Part shown: piece by piece, positions 27,105 to 62,817 of the stretch
Layout of the letters: every line of letters begins with the position of its first letter
Position numbering within the stretch: the stretch's first letter is position 1
Assembly (NCBI RefSeq): GCF_032884065.1
Contig: NC_088871.1
Span: forward strand, 21,278,755-21,342,754
Length of the DNA: 64,000 nt
Source of the DNA: Artemia franciscana
Taxonomy: Eukaryota; Arthropoda; Branchiopoda; Anostraca; Artemiidae
Direction: 5' to 3'
Notes under the pieces: generated by a model
Database searches by the model: none
What the model was told of the DNA's origin: nothing
The model's input: the letters and a program-made list of their open reading frames with translations, nothing else
Made by a program: the position numbers and the translations under genes

Positions 27105-27115
27105 TACAATACAAA

Positions 27116-34122: not shown

Positions 34123-34160
<38 letters not shown>

Positions 34161-34315
34161 ATATTTCACAGGTGGGACATAGGGACACAACTACAATGGC
34201 GCGTAACTATTATGGCGCGTAACGACTTACGCGCGCGGGGGGGCTTGGGGGGGGGCGCGAAGCGCCCCCACCAACTAGGTGTTGGGGTGGCGCGAAGCGC
34301 CACCCCAACAGCTAG
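31704..34315 (+). mobile_element. Composite Helitron inserted in the RT gene (copy A)
   Basis: TC at 31704 after an A, an inner second 5' end near 32536 (TTTC instead of ATC, possibly a sequencing error), the A-rich and minisatellite blocks, the helicase tail, a short (TA)n and CTAG at 34312-34315 followed by T. It equals 46999-49644 in copy B. Confidence 0.8.
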
Positions 34316-34985: not shown

Positions 34986-35589
34986 CGCCATTTATTTGAA
35001 TGTGTTTCTAATAGAGCGGATTTTTAAAAAAAAAATAGCCACATGGTAAAGATGAATTCTATAATTGTTTAGTTCTTTTTTTTTGCTATGTGTTAATACT
35101 TGTGATTTGGTAAATTTTATCATATTTAGTTTACCTTTGTTGCTAAAAAGAGGGATATATTAACAGGATAAGCTTGTTTTGGTGTTACTTGGTTGTTTTA
35201 CATTTGCTGTTTTTTTTTTCATAGGCATGTATTTTTGGGGGTGATACATGACACGGGGATGCCATGGATATTCTGTGGTAGCCACAACACTTGGCTGGGT
35301 AGAAAATTTAAAGTGGCGAGACCCTATAGGCCAGTGTATTCTCCTGATGAGCCCTTGTGTTGGGTTGTTGCCTCTTTATTATTTTTTCTATTGTTTGGTA
35401 AATGACGACTTATACTTATTAACGACATGACTGCCTGTCCATGATTATTCTTGATGGTTGATTGTGTTTGGCTATGCTATTTGACCTATGTGATTATATG
35501 GATGAGTAGGGTTAAGGCCTCATTCAAGTGCTGGTCTATATTAATCACTAATTTAGGAAAACAGTCTTCTTTTTCTCCTTCTGTCTCTC

Positions 35590-35591
<2 letters not shown>

Positions 35592-35624
<33 letters not shown>

Positions 35625-35788
35625 TTTTTTTTTTTTTTTTTTATGTATCTTTCTATATTCACAGGTGGGACACAGGGACACAACTAAAATGGCGCGTAAC
35701 GACTTAAGCGCGCGGGGGAGCTTGGGGGGCGCGAAGCACCCCACCAACTAGGTGTTGGGGTGGCGCGAAGCGCCACCCCAACAGCTAG
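35592..35788 (+). mobile_element. Poly-T joined to a Helitron 3' end (copy A)
   Basis: About 50 T (one A), then TGTATCTTTCTATATTCACA and a shortened GC-rich 3' region with both hairpins and CTAG at 35785-35788, followed by T. No body, helicase tail or 5' end. Copy B equivalent: 50929-51126. Confidence 0.7.
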
Positions 35789-36305
35789 TTTATTATATTT
35801 ATTCCTTTCTTTTCTCGTGTACATGACTATATTTCCTAGTGTTAAGCATTGAGTCCTAGTATTAGGTAAATGTAATGTTTCATTTAAGCCTTTTCTGATG
35901 ATCACTGACGTAATTTTATGATATTTGTACCTTTTTCTGTATTCATGGCCATATTTTTGACCTTAAAATACACTTAGTTGTACTATGCTGGGGGGACAAC
36001 TATATATATACTCCCGTCCCCACTTGTTAGAACTGCATGTTAGAACCATGGCTGCAACATTGAAACAAAAGTCACTTCCAGTCATGGTAGTACCCAATCG
36101 CTCCGCCTATTGGAGTTACTGATTGACCAAAATCCAGTCCGTCTCGTTTTTGCTTCTTTTTACTAATATAGTCGTGGCTTAAAATAACTCGAGTCTCAAA
36201 GAACAAAGTCTTGCTCTGAAATATCGAACACTTGCAATATATAATATTCTAAATGAATTAATTAGAAAGGTTTAAACATCTTTATAACAATGAGAAATTA
36301 CTTAC

Positions 36306-36537
36306 CACAGCTCTCAAAGCAAGTCCTGAACTGCCACCTGGAAGTTGATAACACCTTCTATCTCCAAAGGTGGGCGCTGAATTTGCGGCATCTCTAAGGG
36401 TCCATAGAAGCTGGAAGCGAATTTTGCAGCATAAGACAATACAGATACTTTATTCCATAGCCATTTTCATCAAGGATTTTCTTAATTGCTGCAATGCGAC
36501 AATCCATCATGTCAGATGGAGCAATAATATGTGCCCC
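36306..36537 (-). pseudogene. ALAD: ALAD exon, copy A, with three indels
   Basis: Same exon as 51645-51877, with the same acceptor and donor. It has one extra C in a C run at the acceptor side, one A missing from an AAA run and one T missing from a TTT run, so the 233-bp exon becomes 232 bp and the frame is lost. All three differences are in homopolymers and the exon lies less than 1 kb from a contig end. This points to uncorrected long-read errors in a redundant contig end as much as to a real broken exon. Confidence 0.85.
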
Positions 36538-36579
36538 CTGAAATAGATGTACCTTCATCAAGTTAAGCTCGATATGTAA

Positions 36580-36800
36580 ATGTACAGAGAGGGCCGTGTC
36601 AGGGGAGGGTTTGTCGATTGAGCCCCCTATACCTCCTGCCTGAGATGTTTGCCCGGCTCGTAAAAACATAATAAAAAGGATATAAACAAATTTTTGACGC
36701 ATTGCTTAAAAGTTTTCTTTTTGTAAAGCATGGTCCCCCCTGAAAAAGATCATTTTGTAACACCCACCCCCCACCCCCAAAAAAAAAATCTTAGATATGA
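36580..36800. repeat. Dispersed repeat family R3 (copy A)
   Basis: GGGCCGTGTCAGGGGAGG, a GTAAAAACATAATAAAAA..ACAAATTTTTGACGC core and a C-rich end. Related to 8535-8705, equal to 51925-52140. Confidence 0.4.
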
Positions 36801-37101
36801 CCCTGTGCAGAGTTTTCAACTCTATGCAGCCAGCTTTTCAACGTTCTTGGATATTTTTTTTCCAGTGACAAAAAATGGTTCGATAAAATCCTGCAGATCA
36901 CTGAAATTACAGAATTGTGCTAATAAACACGATTATTTTGTGTTAATAAAACTTGTTGAAACACGGTATTTTAGAAGACCCCAAAAACCAGCATTTTAGA
37001 CGAGCTGGGTCTGAAGAAAGCGAAGCCAAGGTTGTCCAACTGCTCTGGCATATGGTCGAAAACTGACTTGTTAGGCAATACGTTTCGGCAACAGTGAAAG
37101 G

Positions 37102-37201
37102 NNNNNNNNNNNNNNNNNNNNNNNNNNNNNNNNNNNNNNNNNNNNNNNNNNNNNNNNNNNNNNNNNNNNNNNNNNNNNNNNNNNNNNNNNNNNNNNNNNN
37201 N
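37102..37201. other. Assembly gap (100 N)
   Basis: Exactly 100 N, the conventional filler for a gap of unknown size. Both flanks belong to the duplicated segment. Confidence 1.
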
Positions 37202-39253
<2,052 letters not shown>

Positions 39254-41240
39254 CTAGCTGTTGGGGTGGCGCTTCGCGCCACCCCAACACCTAGTTGGTG
39301 GGGGCGCTTCGCGCCCCCCCCCAAGCCCCCCCGCGCGCGTAAGTCGTTACGCGCCATAATAGTTACGCGCCATTGTAGTTGTGTCCCTATGTCCCACCTG
39401 TGAATATAGATAGATATATATATATGGTTTTAACTACGTAAAACTTGCGAATATACAACATTCTTTGCTGTCCCATTGTCTTTGCATATAAATAGATTGT
39501 CAGGTTTACCGACTCTTGAACATGCAACATATAATGGTCCATGGGAAAACAATCTGTATTCAGATCTATACCTCATGATTCTAATGATTGCCCTTGAGCT
39601 TTGTTGATGGTTATTGCTAATCGACCATTCCATGTCCCGGTGTCCCGGTCGTCATTTACATCCCCCTGTTTCCCCCGGTGTCCCCGTTGTAGTTGTGTCC
39701 CGGTCGTCATTTATATTCCCTGTGTCCCGGTCGTCATTTGTATCCCGGTGTCCCGGTCTGTATATACATTCGTTTTTTAGTTTTGTTTTTCTCCTTTATT
39801 TTTTTCCTTTTTTTTCTTTTTTAGCTTATTTAGATTTTTAGATTTTTTAGTTTTTTTATTAGTTTTTAGTTTTTTTTTTCTTTTTAGTTTTTTTTGTCCC
39901 GGTCGTCATTTATATCCCCCTGTTTCCCCCGGTGTCCCCGTTGTAGTTGTGTCCCTGTGTCCCGGTTTTTAGTTCTTTTAGTTTTTACCTTTTTTAGTTT
40001 TTTTTAGTTTTTTAGATGAAAATTTTTTTTAGTTTTTTCCTTTTTTTCTTTTTAGTTTTTTATTGGTTTTTACCTTTATGTTAGCTTATTTTTCAGTTTT
40101 TTCCTTTTTTTTAGTTTTTTTTTATTTTTTTTTTTTTTAGTTTTTTACCTTTTTTTAGTTTTTTTAGTTTTTTCAGTTTTTTTTAGTTTTTTAGCTTTTT
40201 TACTTTTTTTATTAGTTTTTAGTTTTTTTGTAGTTTTTGCCTTTTTTAGTTTTTTCAGTTTTTTTTTAGTTTTTTATTGGTTTTTACCTTTTTTTTAGCT
40301 TATTTTTCAGTTTTTTCCTTTTGTTTAGTTGTTTTTAGTTGTTTTTAGTTTTTTTAGTTTTTTACCTTTTTTTTAGTTTTTTTAGTTTTTTAGCTTTTTT
40401 ATTTTTTTTTTATTAGTTTTTAGTTTTTTTTGCAGTTTTTGCCTTTTTTTTAGTTTTTTTAGTTTTTTAGCCTTTTTATTAGTTTTTAGTTTTTTTTGTA
40501 GTTTTTGCCTTTTTTTAGTTTTTTTAGTTTTTTAGCTTTTTTATTTTTTTTATTAGTTTTTAGTTTTTTTTGTAGTTTTTGCCTTTTTTTTTTTTTTCTT
40601 TTTTGACGTCACCTGATCCAGTTTTTTCAGGTGACGTCACCTGATCCACGATCCACAGACAACTTATTTTTATATATATAGATAGTTTTTTTTTTTTACT
40701 TATGTCCTGGTCGTCATTTATACTCCCTGTGTCCCTGTGCTTTGTTGATTGCTAATCGAACATTCCTTTTGTCCTGGTCGCTTTCTCTTTGAGTGTTGTC
40801 ATTTATTAGTTTTTTCCTTTTTTTTTAGTTTTTTATTGGTTTTTACCTTTATTTTAGCTTATTTTTCAGTTTTTTCCTTTTTTTTAGTTTTTTTTTATTT
40901 TTTATTTTTTTTAGTTTTTTACCTTTTTTTAGTTTTTTTTTAGTTTTTTTAGTTTTTTAGCTTTTTTACTTTTTTATTAGTTTTTAGTTTTTTTTTGTAG
41001 TTTTTGCCTTTTTTTAGTTTTTTCAGTTTTTTTTTTAGTTTTTTATTGGTTTTTACCTTTATAGTTTTTTTAGTTTTTTAGCTTTTTTATTTTTTTTTAT
41101 TAGTTTTTAGTTTTTTTTGTAGTTTTTGCCTTTTTTTAGTTTTTTCAGTTTTGACGTCACCTGATCCAGTTTTTTCAGGTGACGTCACCTGACACATCCA
41201 TCCATCCATCCACAGACAACTTATTTTTTATATATATAGA
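39254..41240 (-). mobile_element. Composite Helitron C2
   Basis: CTAG at 39257-39254, helicase tail 39424-39630, minisatellite and T-rich blocks, inner 5' end TC at 40682 and outer 5' end TC at 41240. The inner and outer ends are joined by the same ACTA|TC junction as in C1 and the plus-strand composites. Confidence 0.8.
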
Positions 41241-42371
<1,131 letters not shown>

Positions 42372-42382
42372 TACAATACAAA

Positions 42383-44363
42383 TTAACTGCGTAAAACTTG
42401 CGAATATACAACATTCTTCGCTGTCCAATTGTCGCTGCATATAAATAGATTGTCAGGTTTACCGACCCTCGAACATGCAACGTACAATTGTCCATGGGAA
42501 AAACAATCAGTATTAAGATCTATTCCACATGTTTCTAATGATTGAGCTTTGTTAATGGTGATTGCAAATGCTAATCGAATTGGGAATTGCAATCTTTTAA
42601 ATTGAAAAGGCAGATCCGTTGGAATCATGGGAATGCGAGGAATAAGAACAGCCTCACCCTCAAACGGCCCTGTCAAGATTGTGGCCTCTATTAGGTTTTC
42701 CATTGTTTTTTTTACGGCAAGTCGCGTGCCATTGCAAAGCTTTGGTGGGTTGATATTTCTTAAAAGTATTATTGGTACGCCTATTTTTAGTTGTAGCACG
42801 TGTGGTGGAAGCCCTGAAAGATCTATGGAATTTAAAAATTCAGATGGATAATTAACCGCTTCATTTGGTTCCAAAACTGTGTCGACTGACTTGTAAAGGA
42901 CTGCCTGGTCTCGAATCTTGGTCAAAACAATATTGTTGATTTCGTGGACGTCTATATTTTTGGGTGCGAGAATCACTCTTTCACTTAGCCATTTATTATT
43001 TTTATAATTTTTTAGAATTTTCGGAAATACTTATTCAATCAATTCATTTTTGGACGTCACTAAATTACAGAAATCAGCAGGTAGTTGTATACGTCCTGAA
43101 ATTGAGTCTACTGGGAGCTTTCCGTTTCCAATTGCCAGCAATTGATCTGAAAATATTTGACCAGAGTCATCGTTTTGCAATCGGACACGCATATTTGTAG
43201 TTAATTTTAATATTTTTACGTGTGCCCATAAATTAGAATTTTTCAGGCAAGCATTCATTTCGTCTGCAGGAGTTGATTTAGGTATTATGAGGAATGTTTG
43301 CCTGAAATCTCCCGCAAGCAATATTAATGTGCTGCCAAAGGGTTTCGACTTCCCTCTCAAATCTTTCAAGCATTAATCCAGAGCCTCGAGCGATTTTTGT
43401 GTGCCATTGTGCACTCATCCCAAATAATAAGTTTGCATTGCTGCAATACTTTACCCATCCCAGATGATTTGGAAATATTGCACGTGGGAGTTTCTGTAGA
43501 ATGCAAATTCAGAGGCAATTTCAAAGCGGAATGAGCAGTTCTTCCACCAGGCAGCAATGTTGCGGCTATTCCGGACGACGCAATTGCCAACGCTATATCA
43601 TTTTTTGATCGAATTGATGCCAGAATCAGTTTTATCACAAACGTTTTACCAGTACCTCCTGGCGCATCCAAAAAGAAAATTTCTCCAACAATGTTATCGA
43701 CACAATGCGTTATCGTATCATAAATGTCTTTTTATTCCGACATTAACTTGGAAATGTTATTTTGTACATACGACAATAGATCACTCGTACTGTAACTTTG
43801 TTCACGATCCAATTCTACACATGTCGAAACAGCAGCGATACGGTTAGGTGAAGGTATTCCCAAATCCTGAAGAAGTTTGTTTGCCATACGGACGCACAAA
43901 TCTTCTATAATAACTAAAGTGTAGTTATAAATTTCTGATGTAAAATCAAAAGTCATATCTGACTTCTCTAACTGTTTTCGATGGAGTATATCTTCGGACA
44001 TTTTTGACTTATATTTTTCCCATAACTCTGTAGGAGCTGATGGAGAGCAAGTGCACGAATTTGACTTGGGGTTGACGTTTCGCACGCTTCATTGATGCAG
44101 TTATCCCAGTGTTGGTCATTCTCCAATAAATTCAGAGCTTGACATGCACTACGGTAAGTGTCATGTATAGTACCGTTTACAGTTCTCAAATACTCAAAGG
44201 ATGTCGGACCGGGTACATTCACCAAAAGCAGGCGTAGAAAGAAGCATTCATGTTGATTGGGGTGAACGGTGTAGAGTCTTCCTATCGTGGTATCTTTGAA
44301 GATGGTAGGTTGGCCGTAAACCCACTGGTTATCTACTTCGATGGTGGTACCGTTGACATTGTA
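42383..44363 (-). pseudogene. Helitron Pif1-like helicase pseudogene (copy B)
   Basis: The conceptual pieces are identical to copy A at 27116-29096, with the same frameshifts, stops and loss of GQ from the NKAQGQ(S/T) motif. The lesions predate whatever produced the two copies. See copy A for the motif order. Confidence 0.85.
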
Positions 44364-44673
44364 GGTTCTTCAGTCATTTTACAATTAGAAATTTCTCTTT
44401 CAACGGTCTTCTTACATTTAAAAATTTGTCTTTGAACGATATTCTTAAATACCTGTGTCCTGGTCGTCATTTATATTCCCTGTGTCCCGGTCGTCATTTG
44501 TGTCCCGGTATCCCAGTCTGTAATTTCTCTTTGAGTGTCCCGGTCGTTATTTATATTCCCTCTGTCCCGGTTGTCATTTGTGTCCCGGTCTGTAATTTCT
44601 CTTTGAGTGTTTTTTCTTTTTAGTATTTTTTAGTTTTTTACATTTTTTCTTTTTTCAGTTTTCTTTTTCTTCT

Positions 44674-45024
44674 TTATTTTTCAGCTTCACTATGAAATAC
44701 ATATCGCCGAACCTTTGTTTTTTGAACTAAAATCTGGTAGGCATTGATGACCTTATCCAAGTCAAAATCCCAAACCCAATCATCATCGCTATCATTTTCA
44801 GTTTTGATATGTTTTGACTCTCGCTGTCCAGGTGGATCTTCATCTAACTGCGCGGTTTTGCGTTCTTTAGCCTCAAGCCTGTTTCCTTGCTGTTCTTTTG
44901 ATTCCTCGGCACGCTTTCTTTTCTGACTTTCTCTATCAGCAGCAAGTTTTTTGGCATAGACTCTTTGAGCATCTTCATCGGCTTTTGCCATTGTAAGTTC
45001 ATCAGTCATTTTAAACTTAAACAT
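44674..45024 (-). CDS. Helitron N-terminal ORF fragment (copy B)
   Basis: Identical to 29407-29757 except one substitution (MAK for MEK near residue 13). It is basic and K/R/E-rich with a KRKR cluster and an acidic NDSDDDW patch. It lies just inside the Helitron 5' end at 45174. Confidence 0.45.
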   Translation of the reverse strand: MFKFKMTDELTMAKADEDAQRVYAKKLAADRESQKRKRAEESKEQQGNRLEAKERKTAQLDEDPPGQRESKHIKTENDSDDDWVWDFDLDKVINAYQILVQKTKVRRYVFHSEAEK

Positions 45025-45174
45025 TAATAGATTTCTACGTGAACATATATGTCTTAAATATCTTTAATGAAGTCACCGTCATAGCAAAAATGACGACAAC
45101 TAACTTCGTCAGTCGACACAGAAACATGACGTCACCTGATCCACAGACAGACAACTTATTTTTATATATATAGA

Positions 45175-46203
45175 TAGATATATTGTGATTCCTCGGCACG
45201 CTTTCTGTTCTTGCTTTCTCTATCAGCCGCAAGCCTGTTTTCTTGCTGTTCTTGTGATTCCTCGGCCGCTTTCTTTTCTTACTTTCTCTATCAGCCGCAA
45301 GTTTTTTGGCATAGACTCTTTGAGAAGCTTCCTCGTCTGTTGCCATTGTAGGTTCTTCAGTCATTTTACAATTAAACATTTTTCCGTCCACGATCTTTTT
45401 ACAATTAAAAATTTTTCTTTTGAGCAGCTTCCTCGGCTGTTGCCATTGTAGGTTCTTCAGTCAATTTACAATTAAACTTTTTTCCTTCCACGATCTTCTT
45501 ACAATTAAAAATTTGTCTTTGAACGATTTTCTTAAATACCTTTAATGACGTCATCGTCATAACAAACATGACGACAACTAACTTCATGACGACATGATGA
45601 CATGACGTCACTCAACAGACCAACAGACAACTTATTTTTATATCTATATATATAAAATATAGAATAGATATTATATCGCGGTCGTTATTTGTGTCCCAGT
45701 GACTCAGTCTGTAATTTCTCTTTGAGTGTCGCGGTCGTCATTTATATTCCCTGTGTCCCGGTTTATAGTTTTCTTTTTCTCCTTTATTTTTCAGCTTTTT
45801 TCCTTTTTTTAGTTTTTTTCTTTTTCAGTTTTTAGTTGTTTTTTTTATTTTTTTTTGTTAGTTTTTAGTTGTTTTTTTCTTTTTAGTTTTTTTGTAGTTT
45901 TTACCTTTTTTTTAGTTTTTAGTTTTTTACCTTTTTTTATTTTTTTTCAGTTTTTTAGCTTTTTCAATATTTTAGTATTTTCTTTTTAGTTTTTTTTTGT
46001 AGTTTTTACCTTTTTTAGTTTTGTTCTTCTTTTGTATTAATGCTAAAGTCAAGGTTCGAACCCGGAACCTCTCGGACCTGGAACCTGGAACATAACGCTT
46101 TACCAACTCAGCTACTTCGGCTTGAATACATTCGTTTCTGAACTGGTATATGATGAAATAATTCAGACGTCATATAATGACGTCACTCGACAGACAGACA
46201 GAC
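45175..46203 (-). mobile_element. Stacked Helitron 5' fragments (copy B)
   Basis: Equals 29908-30915: partial N-terminal ORF copies, the TGACGTCATCG block, minisatellite, T-rich block, tRNA-like piece at 46041-46121 and a GACGTCACTCGACAGACAG end. Confidence 0.5.
46041..46121 (-). other. tRNA-derived sequence (copy B)
   Basis: Same as 30753-30832 with one extra A: A box TAGCTGAGTTGG, B box GGGTTCGAACC, unpaired acceptor ends. Confidence 0.5.
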
Positions 46204-46998
46204 AAGAATTTAATTATTAGTAGAATAAGAAATAAAATATATTCTAATTTAAAAAATAGTAACACTAGATCATTATTTTGTAATGCGAAGATTAAACAAG
46301 CAATTGCTAATCTACAGAATGAATTTGTAATTGTGTCAGTGGATAAAGCTAATAATAATTTTGCCATAATTTGTCAGAAGCTGTATTGTGATATCTTAAA
46401 AAGGGAGTTATGCACAACTAATGTTTATGAAAAGGTAAATTTAGAGGATGAGAATTTAATTGACAAGACTGAAGAAATACTTTTTAAAAATTTTAATATT
46501 AAAATAAATGACAATGATAAAAAGTTCCCTTTCCTATATTGGACTGTAAAATTTCATAAGATCCCCCTAAACCACGGTTTATTGCTGGAGCAGCTAAATG
46601 TCCAACCCGCATTGCTGCTACTGACCTCTCTTTAATTTTAAAGGAAATTGAAAATAAACTTAAAACCTATTGTTCTGGTATTAAAGTTTTCGAATTTTAA
46701 TCTATATTGGAGTGTTAATAATTCACTGCAGGTGATAGAGTCTTTAACAATGGTTTCAGCTAAAAGAATTGAGTCTTTCGATTTTGTGACAATGTATACT
46801 AATTTATCACTTAATGTAGTGTTAGATAATTTAAAAACTGTTATCAAGAAATCTTTCCTCTTATCTAGTAAAAGGTTCTTAAAAATAGACACTTATAATA
46901 AAAAAAGCTATATGGACAAATTGCTTTAATACTACAGTTAACTTGAGATGTTACAGCTTGGATATGATTTTTGAGTTATTAGAATTTGTTTTATACAA
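46204..46998 (+). pseudogene. Penelope-like reverse transcriptase, 5' part (copy B)
   Basis: Reads KNLIISRIRNKIYSNLKN, then NEFVIVSVDKANNNFAIICQ, a KLYCDILKREL segment, FLYWTVKFHKIP, RFIAGAAKCPTRIAATDLS after a frameshift, YWSVNNSLQVIESL and ESFDFVTMYTNLSL (motif A). The DKA-x-NN and K-x-HK-x-P segments followed by R-x-I-x-(G/S) resemble Penelope-like element RTs; the family assignment is tentative. At least three frameshifts (near 46570, 46690 and 46920) kill it. No start methionine is evident, so the 5' end is missing. The gene is cut by a Helitron at 46998|46999. Confidence 0.65.
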
Positions 46999-49457
46999 TC
47001 TATATATATAAAAATAAGTTGTCTGTGGATGTGTGGATGGATCAGGTGACGTCACCTGAAAAAACTGGATCAGGTGACGTCAAAACTGAAAAAACTAAAA
47101 TAAGGCAAAAACTACAAAAAAAACTAAAAACTAATAAAAAAAATAAAAAAGCTAAAAAACTAAAAAAACTAAAAAAAGGCAAAAACTACAAAAAAAACTA
47201 AAAACTAATAAAAAAGCTAAAAAACTAAAAAAACTAAAAAAAGGCAAAAACTACAAAAAAAACTAAAAACTAATAAAAAAAATAAAAAAGCTAAAAAACT
47301 AAAAAAACTAAAAAAACTAAAAAAAGGTAAAAAACTAAAAAAACTAAAAACTAAAAAAAACTAAAAAAAAAGGAAAAAACTGAAAAATAAGCTAAAATAA
47401 AGGTAAAAACCAATAAAAAACTAAAAAAAAACTGAAAAAACTAAAAAAAAGGCAAAAACTACAAAAAAAAACTAAAAACTAATAAAAAAAGTAAAAAAAC
47501 TAAAAAACTAAAAAAACTAAAAAAACTAAAAAAAGGTAAAAAACTAAAAAAAAATAAAAAAAAACTAAAAAAAAGGAAAAAACTGAAAAATAAGCTAAAA
47601 TAAAGGTAAAAACCAATAAAAAACTAAAAAGAAAAAAAGGAAAAAACTAAAAAAAATTTTCATCTAAAAAACTAAAAAAAAACTAAAAAAGGTAAAAACT
47701 AAAAGAACTAAAAAAGAAAAAAATAAATGACGAAACTCAAAGAGAAAGCGACCAGGACAAAAGGAATGTTCGATTAGCAATCAACAAAGCACCGGGACAC
47801 AGGGAGTATAAATGACGACCAGGACATAAGTAAAAAAAAAAAACTATCTATATATATAAAAATAAGTTGTCTGTGGATCTGTGGATCGTGGATCAGGTGA
47901 CGTCACCTGAAAAAACTGGATCAGGTGACGTCAAAACTGAAAAAACTAAAAAAAGGCAAAAACTACAAAAAAAACTAAAAACTAATAAAAAAAATAAAAA
48001 AGCTAAAAAACTAAAAAAACTAAAAAAAGGCAAAAACTACAAAAAAAACTAAAAACTAATAAAAAAGCTAAAAAACTAAAAAAACTAAAAAAAAGGCAAA
48101 AACTACAAAAAAAAACTAAAAACTAATAAAAAAAATAAAAAAGCTAAAAAACTAAAAAAACTAAAAAAACTAAAAAAAGGTAAAAAACTAAAAAAACTAA
48201 AAACTAAAAAAAACTAAAAAAAAGGAAAAAACTGAAAAATAAGCTAAAATAAAGGTAAAAACCAATAAAAAACTAAAAAAAAAACTGAAAAAACTAAAAA
48301 AAGGCAAAAACTACAAAAAAACTAAAAACTAATAAAAAAAAGTAAAAAAGCTAAAAAACTAAAAAAACTAAAAAAACTAAAAAAAGGTAAAAAACTAAAA
48401 AAAATAAAAAATAAAAAAAAAACTAAAAAAAAAGGAAAAAACTGAAAAATAAGCTAACATAAAGGTAAAAACCAATAAAAAACTAAAAAGAAAAAAAGGA
48501 AAAAACTAAAAAAAATTTTCATCTAAAAAACTAAAAAAAACTAAAAAAGGTAAAAACTAAAAGAACTAAAAAAGAAAAAAATAAATGACGACACTCAAAG
48601 AGAAAGCGACCAGGACAAAAGGAATGTTCGATTAGCAATCAACAAAGCACCGGGACACAGGGAGGATAAATGACGACCAGGACATAAGTAAAAAAAAAAA
48701 TTAACAAAACTAAAAAGAAGGTAAAAACTACAAAAAAACTAAAAAGAAAAAAAAACTAAAAACTAATAAAAAAACTAAAAAATCTAAAAATCTAAATAAA
48801 CTAAAAAGGAAAAAAATAAAGGAGAAAAACAAAACTAAAAAACGAATGTATATACAGACCGGTACACCGGGATACAAATGACGACCGGGACACAGGGAAT
48901 ATAAATGACGACCGGGACACAGGGACACAACTACAACGGGGGCACCGGGGGAAACAGGGGGATATAAATGACGACCGGGACAAAAAAACTAAAAAGAAAA
49001 AAAAACTAAAAACTAATAAAAAAACTAAAAAATCTAAAAATCTAAATAAGCTAAAAAAGAAAAAAAAAGGAAAAAAAATAAAGGAGAAAAACAAAACTAA
49101 AAAACGAATGTATATACAGACCGGGACACCGGGATACAAATGACGACCGGGACACAGGGAATATAAATGACGACCGGGACACAGGGACACAACTACAACG
49201 GGGACACCGGGGGAAACAGGGGGATGTAAATGACGACCGGGACACCGGGACAGGGAATGGTCGATTAGCAATCACCATCAACAAAGCTCAAGGGCAATCA
49301 TTAGAATCATGAGGTATAGATCTGAATACAGATTGTTTTCCCATGGACCATTATATGTTGCATGTTCAAGAGTCGGTAAACCTGACAATCTATTTATATG
49401 CAAAGACAATGGGACAGCAAAGAATGTTGTATATTCGCAAGTTTTACGTAGTTAAAA

Positions 49458-49491
<34 letters not shown>

Positions 49492-49644
49492 ATATTCACA
49501 GGTGGGACATAGGGACACAACTACAATGGCGCGTAACTATTATGGCGCGTAACGACTTACGCGCGCGGGGGGGCTTGGGGGGGGCGCGAAGCGCCCCCAC
49601 CAACTAGGTGTTGGGGTGGCGCGAAGCGCCACCCCAACAGCTAG
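46999..49644 (+). mobile_element. Composite Helitron inserted in the RT gene (copy B)
   Basis: TC at 46999-47000 after A. CRE palindrome. A-rich CTAAAAA block. TGACGACCAGGACATAAG. Second 5' end TC at 47847-47848 after ACTA. Second A-rich block, minisatellites, helicase tail (about 49255-49456), (TA)n, GC-rich 3' region, then CTAG at 49641-49644 before T. Removing exactly this segment joins TTATACAA to TACTTATATAAG and continues the RT frame (LEFVLYN|TYIRFGGD). This fixes both ends to the base and shows that the two-headed composite was the transposed unit. Confidence 0.9.
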
Positions 49645-50310
49645 TACTTATATAAGATTTGGTGGTGATTTGTACAAGCAAATTTTGGGAATTCCCATGG
49701 GGGGGGGGGGAATGCGGGCCCATTTATAGCTGACTTGTTTTTAAGTCAACTAGAATATAAATATATGATGGAAGAGAATAATCCAAATAATTTAAAACAT
49801 GTTTTGTCAAATAATAAAAGATATTTAGATGATATTTTGGTCTTAAATTGTAAGGATTTCATTGATATTTCTAAAAATATATATCCATCAGAGCTTACAC
49901 TTGAACCTAGTCATGGCGCTGGTCATGAAGATCATTTCTTAGATTTAAATGTTAATATTTGTGATAATAATAAATTAAGTTTTAAAATGTATAATAAAAC
50001 GGATGATTTTGATTTTGAAGTGATTTGTTTCCCATTCCCTGAAAGTAATATACACTCAAATATCACATATTCTGCGTTTTTCTCACAGTTACTTCGTTAT
50101 GCAAGGATTTGTAGTAATTATATTGATTTTAAAAATAGATGTAAAATCTTAAGCCAAAAATTGATATCAAGAGGTTTTTCTGCAAATAAATTAACTTGGC
50201 AATTTAAAAAATTTAGTTTTCATTATAACGAAATTTTAAATAAATATCAAAAGAATTATCTGGAAATACTTAAAGAAATTTTCAACCAATTTCGGAGGTT
50301 CGACAAATGA
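49645..50310 (+). pseudogene. Penelope-like reverse transcriptase, 3' part (copy B)
   Basis: Continues the split gene: YIRFGGDLYKQILGIPMG (motif B), FIADLFLSQLEYKYM, RYLDDILVLN (motif C with catalytic DD), AGHEDHFLDLNVN, FDFEVICFPFPESNI, QLLRYARICSNY and a basic tail ending FNQFRRFDK. From 49735 it is open to a TGA at 50310. A 12-G run in motif B puts the two sides out of frame and replaces the residue usually found after MG by extra glycines. No GIY-YIG endonuclease is visible downstream. Confidence 0.65.
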
Positions 50311-50926
50311 TGATGCAGCGCCATTTATTTTGAATTGTGTTTCTAATAGAGCGGATTTTTTAAAAAAAAATAGCCACATGGTAAAGATGAATTCTATAAT
50401 TGTTTAGTTCTTTTTTTTTTGCTATGTGTTAATACTTGTGATTTGGTAAATTTTATCATATTTAGTTTACCTTTGTTGCTAAAAAGAGGGATATATTAAC
50501 AGGATAAGCTTGTTTTGGTGTTACTTGGTTGTTTTACATTTGCTGTTTTTTTTTTCATAGGCATGTATTTTTGGGGTGATACATGACACGGGGGATGCCA
50601 TGGATATTCTGTGGTAGCCACAACACTTGGCTGGGTAGAAAATTTAAAGTGGCGAGACCCTATAGGCCAGTGTATTCTCCTGATGAGCCCTTGTGTTGGG
50701 TTGTTGCCTCTTTATTATTTTTTCTATTGTTTGGTAAATGACGACTTATACTTATTAACGACATGACTGCCTGTCCATGGATTATTCTTGATGGTTGATT
50801 GTGTTTGGCTATGCTATTTGACCTATGTGATTGTATGGATGAGTAGGGTTAAGGCCTCATTCAAGTGCTGGTCTATATTAATCACTAATTTAGGAAAACA
50901 GTCTTCTTTTTCTCCTTCTGTCTCTC

Positions 50927-50928
<2 letters not shown>
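50311..50928 (+). other. Probable 3' region of the Penelope-like element
   Basis: Follows the RT stop without a visible boundary. Contains runs of T and a GC-richer part near 50570-50720. No recognised coding sequence; kept identical in copy A (34986-35591) apart from small indels. Confidence 0.35.
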
Positions 50929-50983
<55 letters not shown>

Positions 50984-51126
50984 ATCTTTCTATATTCACA
51001 GGTGGGACACAGGGACACAACTAAAATGGCGCGTAACGACTTAAGCGCGCGGGGGAGCTTGGGGGGCGCGAAGCACCCCCACCAACTAGGTGTTGGGGTG
51101 GCGCGAAGCGCCACCCCAACAGCTAG
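50929..51126 (+). mobile_element. Poly-T joined to a Helitron 3' end (copy B)
   Basis: 51 consecutive T, then TGTATCTTTCTATATTCACA, and the shortened 3' region with both GAA-loop hairpins and CTAG at 51123-51126 before T. Everything upstream that other Helitrons carry, including the (TA)n tract, is missing. Confidence 0.7.
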
Positions 51127-51644
51127 TTTATTATATTTATACCTTTTTTTTCTCGTGTACATGACTATATTTCCTAGTGTTAAGCATTGAGTCCTAGTAT
51201 TAGGTAAATGTAATGTTTCATTTAAGCCTTTTCTGATGATCACTGATGTAATTTTATGATATTTGTACCTTTTTCTGTATTCATGGCCATATTTTTGACC
51301 TTAAAATACACTTAGTTGTACTATGCTGGGGGACAACTATATATATACTCCCGTCCCCACTTTAATGATCTGCATGTTAGAACCATGGCTGCAACATTTG
51401 AAACAAAAGTCACTTCCAGTCATGGTAGTAACCAATCGCTCCCGCCTATTGGAGTTACTGATTGACCAAGATCCAGTCCGTCTCGTTTTTGCTTCTTTTT
51501 ACTAATATAGTCGTGGCTTAAAATAACTCGAGTCTCAAAGAACAAAGTCTTGCTCTGAAATATCGAACACTTGCAATATATAATATTCTAAATGAATTAA
51601 TTAGAAAGGTTTAAACATCTTTATAACAATGAGAAATTACTTAC

Positions 51645-51877
51645 CACAGCTCTCAAAGCAAGTCCTGAACTGCCACCTGGAAGTTGATAACACCTTCTAT
51701 CTCCAAAGGTGGGCGCTGAATTTGCGGCATCTCTAAAGGGTCCATAGAAGCTGGAAGCGAATTTTGCAGCATAAGACAATACAGATACTTTATTTCCATA
51801 GCCATTTTCATCAAGGATTTTCTTAATTGCTGCAATACGACAATCCATCATGTCAGATGGAGCAATAATATGTGCCC
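51645..51877 (-). CDS. ALAD: Delta-aminolevulinic acid dehydratase, exon with first Schiff-base lysine
   Basis: A 233 bp exon with acceptor GATGTAC..ATTTCAG before 51877 and donor GTAAGT after 51645. After two bases of a split glycine codon it reads [68 protein letters not shown] and SSGLALRAV. The lysine in AAKFAS corresponds to the substrate-binding Lys199 of the human enzyme; [13 protein letters not shown] and GDRRCYQ are family signatures. It ends on a codon boundary and continues in exon 20703-20819. The zinc-binding cysteine region and N-terminus are encoded upstream, beyond 64 kb or in sequence I could not recognise. Confidence 0.95.
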
Positions 51878-51924
51878 CTGAAATAGATGTACCTTCATCA
51901 AGTTAAGCTCGATATGTAAATGTA

Positions 51925-52140
51925 CAGAGAAGGCCGTGTCCAGGGGGAGGGTTTGACGATTGAGCCCCTATACCTCCTGCCTGAGATGTTTGCCCGGCTC
52001 GTAAAAACATAATAAAAATGGATATAAACAAATTTTTGACGCATTGCTTAAAAGTTTTCTTTTTGTAAAGCATGGTCCCCCCTGAAAAAGATCATTTTGT
52101 AACACCCCCCCCAAAAAAAAAAATCTTAGATATGACCCTG
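51925..52140. repeat. Dispersed repeat family R3 (copy B)
   Basis: Same as 36580-36800; lies in the ALAD intron just upstream of the exon. Confidence 0.4.
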
Positions 52141-52431
52141 TGCAGAGTTTTCAACTCTATGCAGCCAGCTTCTCAACGTTCTTGGATAATTTTTTCAGTG
52201 ACAAAAAAATGGTTCGATAAAATCCTGCAGATCACTGAAATTACAGAATTGTGCTAATAAACACGATTATTTTGTGTTAATAAAACTTGTTGAAACACGG
52301 TCTTTTAGAAGACCCCAAAACCAGCATTTTAGACGAGCTGGGTCTGAAGAAAGCGAAGCCAAGGTTGTCCAACTGCTCTGGCATATGGTCGAAAACTGAC
52401 TTGTTAGGCAATACGTTTCGGCAACAGTGAA

Positions 52432-53067: not shown

Positions 53068-54288
<1,221 letters not shown>

Positions 54289-54438
54289 CTAGCTGTTGGG
54301 GTGGCGCTTCGCGCCACCCCAACACCTAGTTGGTGGGGGCGCTTCGCGCCCCCCACCCCCAAGCCCCCCCGCGCGCGTAAGTCGTTACGCGCCATATTAG
54401 TTACGCGCCATTGTAGTTGTGTCCCTATGTCCCACCTG

Positions 54439-54504
<66 letters not shown>
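54289..54504 (-). mobile_element. Helitron E2, 3' end only
   Basis: CTAG at 54292-54289, GC-rich 3' region and (TA)n. E3 is inserted within this (TA)n at 54504|54505. Confidence 0.75.
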
Positions 54505-54505
<1 letters not shown>

Positions 54506-56061
54506 TAGCTGTTGGGGTGGCGCTTCGCGCCACCCCAACACCTAGTTGGTGGGGGCGCTTCGCGCCCCCCCCCAAGCCCCCCCGCGCGCGTAAGTCGTTA
54601 CGCGCCATAATAGTTACGCGCCATTGTAGTTGTGTCCCTATGTCCCACCTGTGAATATAGATATATATATATATATGGTTTTAACTACGTAAAACTTGCG
54701 AATATACAACATTCTTTGCTGTCCCATTGTCTTTGCATATAAATAGATTGTCAGGTTATCCCCCTGTTTCCCCCGGTGTCCCCGTTGTAGTTGTGTCCCT
54801 GTGTCCCGGTCGTCATTTATATTCCCTGTGTCCCGGGTCCCGGTCATCATTTGTATCCCGGTGTCCCGGTCTGTATATACATTCGTTTTTTAGTTTTGTT
54901 TTTCTCCTTTATTTTTTTCCTTTTTTTTTCTTTTTTAGCTTATTTAGATTTTTAGATTTTTTAGTTTTTTTTATTAGTTTTTAGTTTTTATTTCTTTTTA
55001 GTTTTTTTGTCCCGGTCGTCATTTATATCCCCCTGTTTCCCCCGGTGTCCCCGTTGTAGTTGTGTCCCTGTGTCCCGGTCGTTATTTATATTCCCTGTGT
55101 CCCGGTCGTCATTTGTATCCCGGTGTACCGGTCTGTATATACATTCGTTTTTTAGTTTCGTTTTTCTCCTTTATTTTTTTCCTTTTTTTTTCTTTTTTAG
55201 TTTATTTAGATTTTTAGATTTTTTAGTTTTTTTATTTGTTTTTAGTTTTTTTTTCTTTTTAGTTTTTTTTTGTAGTTTTTACCTTCTTTTTAGTTTTGTT
55301 AATTTTTTTTTTTTACTTGTGTCCTGGTCGTCATTTATACTCCCTGTGTCCCGGTGCTTTGTTGATTGCTAATCGAACATTCCTTTTGTCCTGGTCGCTT
55401 TCTCTTTGAGTGTCGTCATTTATTTTTTTCTTTTTTAGTTCTTTTAGTTTTTACCTTTTTTAGTTTTTTTTTAGTTTTTAGTTTTTTTAGTTTTTTACCT
55501 TTTTTTAGTTTTTTTAGTTTTTTAGCTTTTTTATTTTTTTTATTAGTTTTTAGTTTTTTTGTAGTTTTTGCCTTTTTTTTTAGTTTTTTGTCCTGGTCGC
55601 TTTCTCTTTGAGTGTCGTCATTTATTAGTTTTTTCCTTTTTTTTTTAGTTTTTTATTGGTTTTTACCTTTATTTTAGCTTATTTTTCAGTTTTTTCCTTT
55701 TTTTTAGTTTTTTTTTATTTTTTATTTTTTTTAGTTTTTTACATTTTTTTAGTTTTTTTAGTTTTTTTAGTTTTTTAGCTTTTTTACTTTTTTTATTAGT
55801 TTTTAGTTTTTTTTTGTAGTTTTTGCCTTTTTTTAGTTTTTTCAGTTTTTTTTTTAGTTTTTTATTGGTTTTTACCTTTATAGTTTTTTTAGTTTTTTAG
55901 CTTTTTTATTTTTTTTATTAGTTTTTAGTTTTTTTTGTAGTTTTTGCCTTTTTTTAGTTTTTTCAGTTTTGACGTCATCTAATCCAGTTTTTTCAGGTGA
56001 CGTCACCTGACACATCCATCCACACATCCACAGACAGACAACTTATTTTTATATATATAGA
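54505..56061 (-). mobile_element. Helitron E3 (1.56 kb)
   Basis: CTAG at 54508-54505, TC at 56061. Truncated helicase tail joined to CCCCCTGTTTCCCCC, two minisatellite blocks, two T-rich blocks, TGACGTCA palindromes. Nearly identical to E4 and to E0. Confidence 0.85.
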
Positions 56062-56075
56062 TATATATATATATA

Positions 56076-57629
56076 CTAGCTGTTGGGGTGGCGCTTCGCG
56101 CCACCCCAACACCTAGTTGGTGGGGGCGCTTCGCGCCCCCCCCAAGCCCCCCCGCGCGCGTAAGTCGTTACGCGCCATAATAGTTACGCGCCATTGTAGT
56201 TGTGTCCCTATGTCCCACCTGTGAATATAGATATATATATATATATGGTTTTAACTACGTAAAACTTGCGAATATACAACATTCTTTGCTGTCCCATTGT
56301 CTTTGCATATAAATAGATTGTCAGGTTATCCCCCTGTTTCCCCCGGTGTCCCCGTTGTAGTTGTGTCCCTGTGTCCCGGTCGTCATTTATATTCCCTGTG
56401 TCCCGGGTCCCGGTCATCATTTGTATCCCGGTGTCCCGGTCTGTATATACATTCGTTTTTTAGTTTTGTTTTTCTCCTTTATTTTTTTCCTTTTTTTTTC
56501 TTTTTTAGCTTATTTAGATTTTTAGATTTTTTAGTTTTTTTTATTAGTTTTTAGTTTTTATTTCTTTTTAGTTTTTTTGTCCCGGTCGTCATTTATATCC
56601 CCCTGTTTCCCCCGGTGTCCCCGTTGTAGTTGTGTCCCTGTGTCCCGGTCGTTATTTATATTCCCTGTGTCCCGGTCGTCATTTGTATCCCGGTGTACCG
56701 GTCTGTATATACATTCGTTTTTTAGTTTTGTTTTTCTCCTTTATTTTTTTCCTTTTTTTTTCTTTTTTAGTTTATTTAGATTTTTAGATTTTTTAGTTTT
56801 TTTATTAGTTTTTAGTTTTTTTTTCTTTTTAGTTTTTTTGTAGTTTTTACCTTCTTTTTAGTTTTGTTAATTTTTTTTTTTTTACTTGTGTCCTGGTCGT
56901 CATTTATACTCCCTGTGTCCCGGTGCTTTGTTGATTGCTAATCGAACATTCCTTTTGTCCTGGTCGCTTTCTCTTTGAGTGTCGTCATTTATTTTTTTCT
57001 TTTTTAGTTCTTTTAGTTTTTACCTTTTTTAGTTTTTTTTTAGTTTTTAGTTTTTTTAGTTTTTTACCTTTTTTTAGTTTTTTTAGTTTTTTAGCTTTTT
57101 TTTTTTTTATTAGTTTTTAGTTTTTTTGTAGTTTTTGCCTTTTTTTTAGTTTTTGACCTGGTCGCTTTCTCTTTGAGTGTCGTCATTTATTAGTTTTTTC
57201 CTTTTTTTTTTAGTTTTTTATTGGTTTTTACCTTTATTCTAGCTTATTTTTCAGTTTTTTCCTTTTTTTAGTTTTTTTTTATTTTTTATTTTTTTTAGTT
57301 TTTTACATTTTTTTAGTTTTTTTAGTTTTTTTAGTTTTTTAGCTTTTTTACTTTTCTTATTAGTTTTTAGTTTTTTTTTGTAGTTTTTGCCTTTTTTTAG
57401 TTTTTTCAGTTTTTTTTTTTAGTTTTTTATTGGTTTTTACCTTTATAGTTTTTTTAGTTTTTTAGCTTTTTTATTTTTTTTATTAGTTTTTAGTTTTTTT
57501 TGTAGTTTTTGCCTTTTTTTAGTTTTTTCAGTTTTGACGTCACCTAATCCAGTTTTTTCAGGTGACGTCACCTGACACATCCATCCACACATCCACAGAC
57601 AGACAGACAACTTATTTTTATATATATAG

Positions 57630-57630
<1 letters not shown>
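56076..57630 (-). mobile_element. Helitron E4 (1.56 kb), tandem with E3
   Basis: CTAG at 56079-56076, TC at 57630. Separated from E3 by only 14 bp of TA, same orientation, differing by a few bases. Tandem insertion into TA, or duplication. Confidence 0.85.
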
Positions 57631-57675
<45 letters not shown>

Positions 57676-57841
57676 TAGCTGTTGGGGTGGCGCTTCGCGT
57701 CACCCCAACACCTAGTTGGTGGGGGCGCTTCGCGCCCCCCCAAGCCCCCCCCCCCGCGCGCGTAAGTCGTTACGCGCCATATTAGTTACGCGCCATTGTA
57801 GTTGTGTCCCTATGTCCCACCTGTGAATATAGATAGATATA

Positions 57842-59876
57842 TCTATATATATAAAAATAAGTTGTCTGTCTGTGGATGTGTGGATGGATGTGTGGATGGA
57901 TGTGTCAGGTGACGTCACCTGAAAAAACTGGATCAGGTGACGTCAAAACTGAAAAAACTAAAAAAAGGCAAAAAACTACAAAAGAAACTAAAAACTAATA
58001 AAAAAAATAAAAAAGCTAAAAAACTAAAAAAACTATAAAGGTAAAAACCAATAAAAAACTAAAAAAAAACTGAAAAAACTAAAAAAAGGCAAAAACTACA
58101 AAAAAAAAACTAAAAACTAATAAAAAAAGTAAAAAAGCTAAAAAACTAAAAAAACTAAAAAAACTAAAAAAACTAAAAAAAGGTAAAAAACTAAAAAAAA
58201 TAAAAAATAAAAAAAAACTAAAAAAAAGGAAAAAACTGAAAAATAAGCTAAAATAAAGGTAAAAACCAATAAAAAACTAAAAAAAAAAGGAAAAAACTAA
58301 TAAATGACGACACTCAAAGAGAAAGCGACCAGGACAAAAGGTATGTTCGATTAGCAATCAACAAAGCACCGGGACACAGGGAGTATAAATGACGACCAGG
58401 ACATAAGTAAAAAAAAAAAACTATCTATATATATAAAAATAAGTTGTCTGTGGATCTGTGGATCGTGGATCAGGTGACGTCACCTGAAAAAACTGGATCA
58501 GGTGACGTCAAAACTGAAAAAACTAAAAAAAGGCAAAAACTACAAAAAAAAACTAAAAACTAATAAAAAAAATAAAAAAGCTAAAAAACTAAAAAAACTA
58601 AAAAAAGGCAAAAACTACAAAAAAAAAACTAAAAACTAATAAAAAAGCTAAAAAACTAAAAAAACTAAAAAAAAAGGCAAAAACTACAAAAAAACTAAAA
58701 ACTAATAAAAAAAATAAAAAGCTAAAAAACTAAAAAAACTAAAAAAACTAAAAAAAGGTAAAAAACTAAAAAAACTAAAAAAGGTAAAAACTAAAAGAAC
58801 TAAAAAAGAAAAAAATAAATGACGACACTCAAAGAGAAAGCGACCAGGACAAAAGGAATGTTCGATTAGCAATCAACAAAGCACCGGGACACAGGGAGTA
58901 TAAATGACGACCAGGACACAAGTAAAAAAAAAAATTAACAAAACTAAAAAGAAGGTAAAAACTACAAAAAAACTAAAAAGAAAAAAAAACTAAAAACTAA
59001 TAAAAAAACTAAAAAATCTAAAAATCTAAATAAACTAAAAAAGAAAAAAAAAGGAAAAAAATAAAGGAGAAAAACAAAACTAAAAAACGAATGTATATAC
59101 AGACTGGTACACCGGGATACAAATGACGACCGGGACACAGGGAATATAAATGACGACCGGGACACAGGGACACAACTACAACGGGGACACCGGGGGAAAC
59201 AGGGGGATATAAATGACGACCGGGACAAAAAAACTAAAAAGAAAAAAAAACTAAAAACTAATAAAAAAACTAAAAAATCTAAAAATCTAAATAAGCTAAA
59301 AAAGAAAAAAAAAGGAAAAAAATAAAGGAGAAAAAATAAACTAAAAAACGAATGTATATACAGACCGGGACACCGGGATACAAATGACGACCGGGACACA
59401 GGGAATATAAATGACGACCGGGACACAGGGACACAACTACAACGGGGACACCGGGGGAAACAGGGGGATGTAAATGACGACCGGGACACCGGGACAGGGA
59501 ATGGTCGATTAGCAATCACCATCAACAAAGCTCAAGGGCAATCATTAGAATCATGAGGTATAGATCTGAATACAGATTGTTTTCCCATGGACCATTATAT
59601 GTTGCATGTTCAAGAGTCGGTAAACCTGACAATCTATTTATATGCAAAGACAATGGGACAGCAAAGAATGTTGTATATTCGCAAGTTTTACGTAGTTAAA
59701 ACCATATATATATATCTATCTATATTCACAGGTGGGACATAGGGACACAACTACAATGGCGCGTAACTATTATGGCGCGTAACGACTTACGCGCGCGGGG
59801 GGGCTTGGGGGGGGGGCGCGAAGCGCCCCCACCAACTAGGTGTTGGGGTGGCGCGAAGCGCCACCCCAACAGCTAG
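57842..59876 (+). mobile_element. Composite Helitron P3, nested in E5 in opposite orientation
   Basis: TC at 57842-57843 after A, inner 5' end TC at 58424-58425 after ACTA, minisatellites, helicase tail (59500-59700), short (TA)n, CTAG at 59873-59876 before T. Excising it restores E5's (TA) tract. Confidence 0.85.
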
Positions 59877-60939
59877 TTATATATATGTTTTTAACTACGT
59901 AAAACTTGCGAATATACAACATTCTTTGCTGTCCCATTGTCTGTGCATATAAATAGATTGTCAGGTTTACCGACTCTTGAACATGCAACATATAATGGTC
60001 CATGGGAAAACAATCCGTATTCAGATCTATACCTCATGATTCTAAAGATTGCCCTTGAGCTTTGTTGATGGTGATTGCTAATCGACCATTCCCTGTCCCG
60101 GTGTCCCGGTCGTCATTTATATCCCCCTGTGCCCCCCGGCGTCCCCGTTGTAGTTGTGTCCCTGTGTCCCGGTCGTCATTTATATTTTTTACTTATGTCC
60201 TGGTCATTATGGCTTATGTATGGTCATTTATATTCCCTGTGTCCCGGTCGTCATTTGTATCCCGGTGTCCCGGTCTGTATATACATTCGTTTTTTAGTTT
60301 TGTTTTTCTCCTTTATTTTTTTCCTTTTTTATTCTGTTTCTTTTTTAGTTTATTTAGATTTTTAGATTTTTTAGTTTTTTTATTACTTTTTATTTTTTTT
60401 TTCTTTTTAGTTTTTTTGTAGTTTTTACCTTCTTATTAGTTTTTTTAGTTTTCTTTTTTACTTATGTCCTGGTCGTCATTTATACTCCCTGTGTCCCGGT
60501 GCTTTGTTGATTGCTAATCGAACATTCCTTTTGTCCCGGTCGCTTTCTCTTTGAGTGTCGTCATTTATTTTTTTCTTTTTTAGTTCTTACCTTTTTTAGT
60601 TTTTTTTAGTTTTTTAGATGAAAATTTTTTTTTAGTTTTTTTCCTTTTTTCTTTTTTGTTTTTTATTGGTTTTTACGTTTTTTTTAGCTTTTTTAGTTTT
60701 TTTTCGTTTTTTCTTTTTACATTTTTTTTAGTTTTTATCTTTTTTATTTTTTTTTATTTTTATTCTTAATTTTATTAGTTTTCTTTTTCTCTTCTATTTT
60801 TCAGTTTTTTCCTTTCTTTTAGTTTTTTTTTTAGTTTTTAGTTTTTTTAGTTTTTTACCTTTTTTTAGTTTTTTTATTTTTTTTTAGTTTTTTAGCCTTT
60901 TTATTTTTTTTTATTAGTTTTTAGTTTTTTAACTTTTTT

Positions 60940-61017
60940 AGCCTAACCAGGATTTGAGCCTGGGACCTTCATTCTCCGTTCTGACACCCTCTCTCACCGA
61001 GTGACTACTCCAGCATG
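60940..61017 (-). other. tRNA-derived sequence in E5
   Basis: Minus strand: a TAGTCACTCGGTGAGAG A-box-like part, a long variable region as in Leu/Ser-type tRNAs, and a complete T-arm with CCAGG / CCTGG stem and seven-base loop CTCAAAT. No matching acceptor stem. Probably a tRNA pseudogene carried by the element. Confidence 0.5.
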
Positions 61018-61194
61018 TTCATTTTGGTGTTTTAAATGGTATATTATTAACCAAATTAATGTGTTTTACAATATACTAAGCATCGTCATAACAAAAATGA
61101 CGACAACTAATTTCATGACGTCAGCCGACACAGAAACATGACCTCACCTGATCCACAGATCCACAGACAGACAACTTATTTTTATATATATAGA

Positions 61195-61450
61195 TAGATA
61201 GATAGATTTTTGAATCTACCAGTTTTTTATTCTTTAAGAAATTCAATCTCTTTTAATACTGTTGTATTTTCAAAGATATTTGATTATTCAAGCAAGCCGT
61301 AATAGGCAGACAACTTATTTTTATATATATAGATAGATAGATTTTTGAAGCTACCAGTTTTTTATTCTTTAAGAAATTCAATCTCTTTTAATACTGTTGT
61401 CTTTTCAAAGATATTTGATTATTCAAGCAAGCCGTAACAGACAGACAACT
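61195..61450 (-). repeat. Two tandem 135-bp units, each ending in a Helitron 5' terminus
   Basis: The unit runs GATTTTTGAA(T/G)CTACCAG to GCAAGCCGTAA, then CAGACAACTTATTTTTA and TATATAGATAGATA. It repeats at a 135-bp offset (61205 and 61340) with few differences. On the minus strand each copy begins with a Helitron-type 5' end. The interior has no Helitron blocks. Confidence 0.75.
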
Positions 61451-61598
<148 letters not shown>

Positions 61599-62603
61599 TT
61601 TAACTACGTAAAACTTGCGAATATACAACATTCTTTGCTGTCCCATTGTCTGTGCATATAAATAGATTGTCAGGTTTACCGACTCTTGAACATGCAACAT
61701 ATAATGGTCAATGGGAAAACAATCCGTATTCAGATCTATACCTCATGATTCTAATGATTGCCCTTGAGCTTTGTTGATGGTGATTGCTAATCGACCATTC
61801 CCTGAGTCGCCATCGTCATTTATATATCCCCCTGTGCACCCCGGCGTCCCCTTTGTAGTTATGTCCCTGTGTCCCGGTCGTCATTTATATTCCCTGTGTC
61901 CCGGTCGTCATTTGTGTCCCGGTGTCCCAGTCTCTGATTTCTCTTTGAGTGTCCCGGGCGTCATTTATATTCCTTGTGTCCCGGTCGTCATTTATATCCC
62001 CCGGTGCCCCCGGCGTCCCCGTTGTAGGTGTGTCATTTATATTCCCTGTGTCCCGGTCGTCATCCCGGTATACATTCGTTTTTGAATTGGTATATGATGA
62101 AATAAATTTTTAATTCTTTCCCTTTTTTTCCTTTTAGTTTTTTTTTATTGGTTTTGACCTTTTTTTAGGTTTTTTAGTTTTTTCTTTTTTCTTTTTAGTT
62201 TTTTTTGAAGTTTTTATCTTTTTAGTTTTTTTATTTTTATTTATATTTTTTTAGTTTTCTTTTTCCCCTTTATTTTTCAGTTTTTTTCCTTTTTTTAGTT
62301 TTTTTTCTTTTTAGTTCTTTTAGTTTTTACCTTTTTTAGTTTTTTTTAGTTTTTTAGATGAAATTTTTTTTAGTTTTATTCCTTTTTTCTTTTCAGTTTT
62401 TTATTGGTTTTTACCTTTTTTTTTTTAGCTTTTTTAGTTTTTTTTCGTTTTTTCTTTTTACTTTTTTTTTTAGTTTTTATCTTTTTTATTTTTTTTTATT
62501 TTTATTCTTAATTTTTTTTTATTAGTTTTTAGTTTTTTTTGTAGTTTTTGCCTTTTTTAGTTTTTTCAGTTTTTTTTTTAGTTTTTAGATTTTTACCTTT
62601 TTT

Positions 62604-62682: not shown

Positions 62683-62817
62683 TCATTTTGGTGTTTTAAA
62701 TGGTATATTATTAACCAAATTAATGTGTTTTACAATATACTAAGCATCGTCATAACAAAAATGACGACAACTAATTTCATGACGTCAGTCAACACAGAAA
62801 TTAAGTTCTGAAATTAA

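Follow-up and report, generated by a model that had tools for sequence, protein, structure and literature searches.

A Helitron with two 5' ends and one 3' end in Artemia franciscana, very probably mobile as a single unit

Helitrons with several 5' termini have been described in a fungus and in maize. For the FoHeli elements of Fusarium oxysporum, a nick at the leftmost 5' end and a stop at the first 3' end have been proposed (PMC5148889). Among maize helA elements, 17.6% possess multiple 5' termini, and a nested-Helitron origin was proposed (PMC3288121). For bats, Helitrons in tandem are also on record. The composite described below was found in a window of 64,000 nucleotides of the Artemia franciscana genome (contig NC_088871.1, positions 21,278,755 to 21,342,754) and is a good example of the kind already known from maize and a fungus.

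Architecture and host site of the composite

The composite (copy A) and its host repeat comprised the following features:

46999 to 49644, forward: copy A, the composite Helitron with two heads, starting in TC, ending in CTAG, flanked by A|T and with 1,822 matches to its empty site
46999 to 47846, forward: outer 5' module (head and A-rich repeats), terminating in ...GTAAAAAAAAAAAACTA
47847 to 49644, forward: inner module, from the second full 5' head to the shared 3' end
47817 to 47866, forward: inner junction J1, the 50-mer used for genome-wide counting
48675 to 48721, forward: uninterrupted counterpart of the junction site, polyA|TTAACAAAAC, within the inner module
49460 to 49489, forward: TA microsatellite in the tail of copy A
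49603 to 49645, forward: 3' terminal hairpin including CTAG (fold of 49590 to 49650, -38.2 kcal/mol)
46500 to 46998, forward: host repeat, upstream part (reverse-transcriptase-like, decayed)
49645 to 50310, forward: host repeat, downstream part

The two 5' ends and single 3' CTAG proposed by the initial annotation were recovered as exact terminus matches. The 29-base 5' terminus TCTATATATATAAAAATAAGTTGTCTGTG occurred with zero mismatches at both 46999 and 47847, and the CTAG end was at 49644, giving copy A two 5' ends for one 3' end. Besides the 5' TC and 3' CTAG, a GC-rich hairpin was present near the 3' end, and the flanking bases were A before 46999 and T after 49644. Compared with the initial ~855 bp of the 1,798-bp inner module, the outer module (848 bp) displayed 96.9 to 98.3% identity, depending on the alignment.

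When the flanks were joined without copy A, one frame resulted (ELLEFVLY|NTYIRFGGDLYKQILGIPMG), as had been claimed; this continuity was local, stops and frameshifts being encountered outside a short stretch. The empty host site (38 bases, at most 3 mismatches) was found 920 times in forward and 902 times in reverse orientation in the 1.27 Gb genome (0 matches for the reversed pattern used as control; the 100 places listed were exact). With the local frame rejoined and 1,822 empty sites available, copy A is therefore inserted precisely between A and T of a high-copy repeat, with no duplication of the target, and its outer 5' end and shared 3' end are its true ends. By motif alone (e.g. GIPMG), the host repeat itself resembles a Penelope-like reverse transcriptase; at 49669 to 50310 Pfam gave 0 families and the structure library matched no solved structure. 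An ORF at 46162 to 46635 displayed a weak Pfam match to Imm64, below cutoff (22 versus 25 bits) and probably meaningless.

The left host junction of copy A was recorded at 12 places and the right one at 13 (at most 3 mismatches, controls 0). They formed nine pairs, including copy A and its duplicate A' (see below), around elements of 1,726 to 5,836 bp, with three left and four right junctions left over. Either this A|T (46998|49645) was repeatedly hit, or an occupied repeat was copied while the A-rich filling altered in length. In the latter case copy A may be a passenger of its host repeat.

The longest ORF overlapping copy A reached 156 aa, and because of this small coding content the element is probably non-autonomous. 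By its motif, 49234 to 49452 (forward) looks like what is left of a Helitron helicase C-terminus; Pfam returned 0 families for this ORF, to which the scan within copy A was confined. PIF1 helicase domains were carried by family elements at 26763 to 29911 and, in duplicate, 42026 to 45178, and no Rep domain was found in the 13 ORFs scanned, a part of those in the window.

Copies, flanks and probable movement as one unit

J1 was common to seven composite copies in 264 kb of contig C9, five in the window and two (E and F) in the 100 kb to its right; it was absent from the 100 kb to the left. In the 100 kb covered on contigs C1 and C5, it was not found within 2 substitutions; on C5, one relative of copy A had a single head and contained the uninterrupted site. 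The copies other than A, together with single-headed relatives, were (window coordinates throughout):

31704 to 34315, forward: copy A', the counterpart of copy A in a segmental duplication, sharing its host flank
57842 to 59876, forward: copy B, lying antisense within the tail TA tract of another Helitron
39254 to 41240, reverse: copy C, standing in a TA tract, its 3' end abutting the 5' end of single-headed S3 (39253-37967)
23252 to 25459, reverse: copy D, lying in sense orientation within the tail TA tract of a Helitron; its inner head has a deletion
97833-95904: copy E, preceded by non-Helitron sequence and a TA tract
95903-93692: copy F, touching E and lacking TC
56076 to 57630, reverse: single-headed relative S1
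54505-56061: single-headed relative S2
37967-39253: single-headed relative S3

The inner junction ACTA|TC was announced for four other copies. It was repeated at 58424 (copy B), 40682 (copy C) and 24898 (copy D), whereas copy A' reads ACTT|TC at 32536. Copy A' provides no evidence for mobility, since it has the same flank and lies in a segmental duplication (26453 to 37098 versus 41716 to 52431, 98.6% identity over 10.7 kb); its use as an independent case was rejected. This duplication also holds PIF1-bearing Helitrons and the host repeat, and an assembly gap (37102 to 37201) occurs at its edge. Scans for ends and junctions that retained best approximate matches can skip weaker ones, so the resulting lists are lower bounds.

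After masking of low-complexity sequence, which restricts the comparison to sequence other than TA tracts, flanks of 1.5 kb on each side were compared by BLAST in 15 pairs among A, A', B, C, D and E. Long matches occurred only on both sides of A/A' and upstream of C/D, the longest elsewhere being 180 bp. The same inner junction thus sits in unrelated flanks, those of A, B, E and C/D being different. Copies C and D share their upstream host sequence owing to the same segmental duplication. Their interpretation as one duplicated insertion was rejected from the layout, as an argument and not a proof, since beyond copy C and S3 there is another head (37537), cut by the gap at 37102 to 37201, whose TA tract is D-like (97.8%).

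On these differing flanks, the composite very probably transposes as a unit from the outer 5' TC to the shared 3' CTAG hairpin, as first suggested; the single outer flank common to all junction copies that would have spoken for duplication was not observed. When starting at the outer 5' end, the transposase would then pass the inner one. Genome-wide, the J1 50-mer was recovered 787 times forward and 786 times reverse (1,573 matches at most 3 mismatches away, control 0/0), which answers the search initially recommended, as a count of junctions and not of insertions. That segmental duplication rather than transposition spread the junction is true of A/A' and of the upstream sequence common to C and D; yet the differing surroundings of A, B, E and C/D, the 1,573 junctions and the precise empty site make it highly improbable as a general explanation. 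We infer that most J1 junctions represent separate insertions.

Among the 100 J1 matches listed, all exact, 76 were on C1 and 24 on C2. The following C1 tallies assume that the exact places listed there are complete. An exact uninterrupted site was found 605 to 864 bp downstream on the same strand for 16 of the 76 exact junctions (0.09 expected; the distance is 858 bp in copy A and ~515 bp in copy B). Conversely, 43 of the 59 exact uninterrupted sites had no exact junction in the 3 kb upstream. A base change near the junction of copy A was considered as a private mark of this copy and rejected, as 731 and 745 exact copies were counted; on C1, 27 of its 79 copies were followed ~98 bp downstream by the exact junction and 3 of 79 by the exact uninterrupted site.

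TA tracts in the tails of other copies appeared as Helitron landing places, and copies B and D sit in such tracts. It resembles a landing pad that the Helitron family brings along, this TA tract of the tail. Region 53068 to 63443 (reverse) forms a Russian-doll array in which S1, S2 and a multi-headed Helitron with antisense copy B seem to lie inside a tail TA tract; the tail of the array's outer Helitron occurs in two parts (61933-61560 and 54477-54287), with Helitron-like TAGGGAATATAAATG beyond its 3' end. Stretches which we take to be tRNA-like (e.g. GGTTCAAATCC boxes) were seen in Helitron copies at 62690-62600, 61020-60940 and 30840-30750 (reverse). ARAGORN recorded no tRNA genes in the window.

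The inner junction and the possible birth of the composite

The composite breakpoint reads polyA-CTA|TC, and its closest uninterrupted relatives polyA-CTA|ACAAAAC. The latter form, in relatives devoid of a second head, was found in 1,353 exact copies, and element 99173-101170 displays two such sites. The broader polyA|TTAACAAAAC pattern gave 2,997 and 3,139 matches on the two strands (6,136, at most 3 mismatches), a count that takes in the inner modules of composites as well as CTAAC variants. Given CTA|TC in the composites as compared with CTA|ACAAAAC in the relatives, the simplest breakpoint would be CTA|A and not A|T. With X as the inserted element and Y as its recipient, an A|T breakpoint would be possible only if X had begun with TCTATCTA and its first T had turned into A. 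Element 68761-67097 does possess a 5' end of the type TCTATCTATATA; its bases 5 to 63 are identical to bases 1 to 59 of the inner head, with divergence thereafter. An X starting with TCTATCTATATA at polyA|TT, which is an A|T site, followed by a T-to-A change, was nevertheless dropped, the CTA relatives of Y explaining the junction more simply.

In the composite as we read it, the 5' module of Y directly precedes X, an entire element of its own family, the pair moving as one. Our preferred birth is that X landed once inside Y, that copying would then have begun at the outer 5' end and stopped at the first 3' end encountered, and that the composite subsequently multiplied while its A-rich interior expanded and contracted. 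One founding event fits, because the outer modules of six copies are alike (97.2 to 99.6% identical), as are the inner ones (97.2 to 99.4%), where alignable and with gaps ignored (up to 340 outer and 800 inner gap columns). The extra module ranged from 558 to 848 bp. Two different source elements also fit, because copies B and C each pair an outer head of one type with an inner head of another. Head type says little in copy A, where the two heads hardly differ, and in D, E and F, where part of the inner head has been deleted. Insertion of one Helitron into another is directly seen for B and D, in the TA tracts of other tails. Of the nested route as originally put forward, the mobile composite stood, while the A|T site is doubtful, the closest relatives pointing to CTA|A. 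At the loci read, no 3' remainder of Y followed the 3' end of X for this junction, so that the nested precursor was not encountered. In the second readable multi-head case (29907/45174), the next base of the outer element was G, not T. Nested birth is still compatible with such breakpoints, because maize Helitrons are not always inserted at A|T (PMC2267711). We regard it as a tentative reading, quite possible and somewhat short of probable.

An alternative dispenses with an A|T inside Y. A 3'-truncated Y ending in ...ACTA would have inserted between a host A and the T of the 5' end of X, after which the tandem would have moved together. No 3' end of the ACTA type is known, which counts against this, and the abutting pairs seen here end in a complete CTAG. 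Elements abutting at heads do exist, namely C against S3 (39254/39253) and E against F (95904/95903, F being without TC), and CTAG|TC neighbours also occur in maize (PMC2267711). Helraiser is reported to have yielded some 3'-truncated insertions from vectors whose 3' hairpin, or entire 3' end, was missing (PMC4778049). On balance, such stacking at the head seems rather unlikely.

We also consider it unlikely that the head was doubled in a circular intermediate, the copied strand stopping at poly-A and copying restarting at the 5' TC of the same element. The junction does join an internal base to an exact 5' end, the two readable breakpoints lack A|T, and in copy A the outer and inner modules show 98.3% identity over 843 bp. 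Yet copies B and C combine an outer and an inner head of different types, for which a restart on the same element would require later exchange. This speaks for nesting or stacking over restart.

Further heads and comparison with described Helitrons

Other multi-head arrangements were observed near 30356 (outer head) with 29907 (inner), duplicated at 45643/45174; at 63443/63284; at 61461/61333/61194 (reverse, the last two spaced 139 bp); and on C5 at 25066/24641. A repeated non-Helitron stretch of ~110 bp occurs between heads 61461, 61333 and 61194. On C1, a pair of exact J1 junctions in like orientation, separated by 1,046 bp, constitutes a candidate for three heads. Three heads deduced from spacing alone at C1:12511972, C1:4309874 and C2:10124921 were dropped, because headless internal repeats in element 99173-101170 give similar spacing. 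A rough tally of heads per tail gave 14 one-head, 8 two-head and 1 five-head cases on C9, 4 one-head cases on C1, and 5 one-head and 1 two-head cases on C5. It is rough since the near-palindromic 3' hairpin produces opposite-strand tail echoes, on one of which the five-head case ends, and copy C was scored as one-head owing to one extra A in its outer head.

The idea that Helitrons grow by adding 5' modules is thus suggested by the four other multi-head cases and one double junction, which is as yet thin support. Growth might also be stepwise and independent of nesting, truncated stacking or 5' restart making ladders that move as units, a proposal that we regard as doubtful. If it were true, the C1 junctions 1,046 bp apart would represent a three-module rung, and an extra head could possibly raise copy number. 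More broadly, these elements amount to a natural experiment, on a large scale, in the choice of start by a rolling-circle transposase. The 1,573 junctions and the thousands of uninterrupted sites make the frequencies of outer and inner starts measurable in one genome, and could also show if extra heads help an element to spread.

The model of nested birth is itself already in print for Fusarium (PMC5148889). Like the composite, FoHeli elements display several 5' termini for one 3' terminus, and their copies occur at different locations with borders dropping sharply (PMC5148889). They differ by repeats typically below 200 bp and by Helitron2-like ends, as opposed to modules of 558 to 848 bp, TC/CTAG ends and more than 1,500 junctions here. 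In maize, the worked case helitron_mc2 concerns extra 3' termini, with a CTAG said to be damaged (PMC3288121), in contrast to the extra 5' ends of the present element. Head-to-tail maize Helitrons resemble C|S3 and E|F in that one element stands directly against the end of another; the adjacent maize pair kept both 3' ends (PMC2267711), whereas the composite lacks the 3' end proper to Y.
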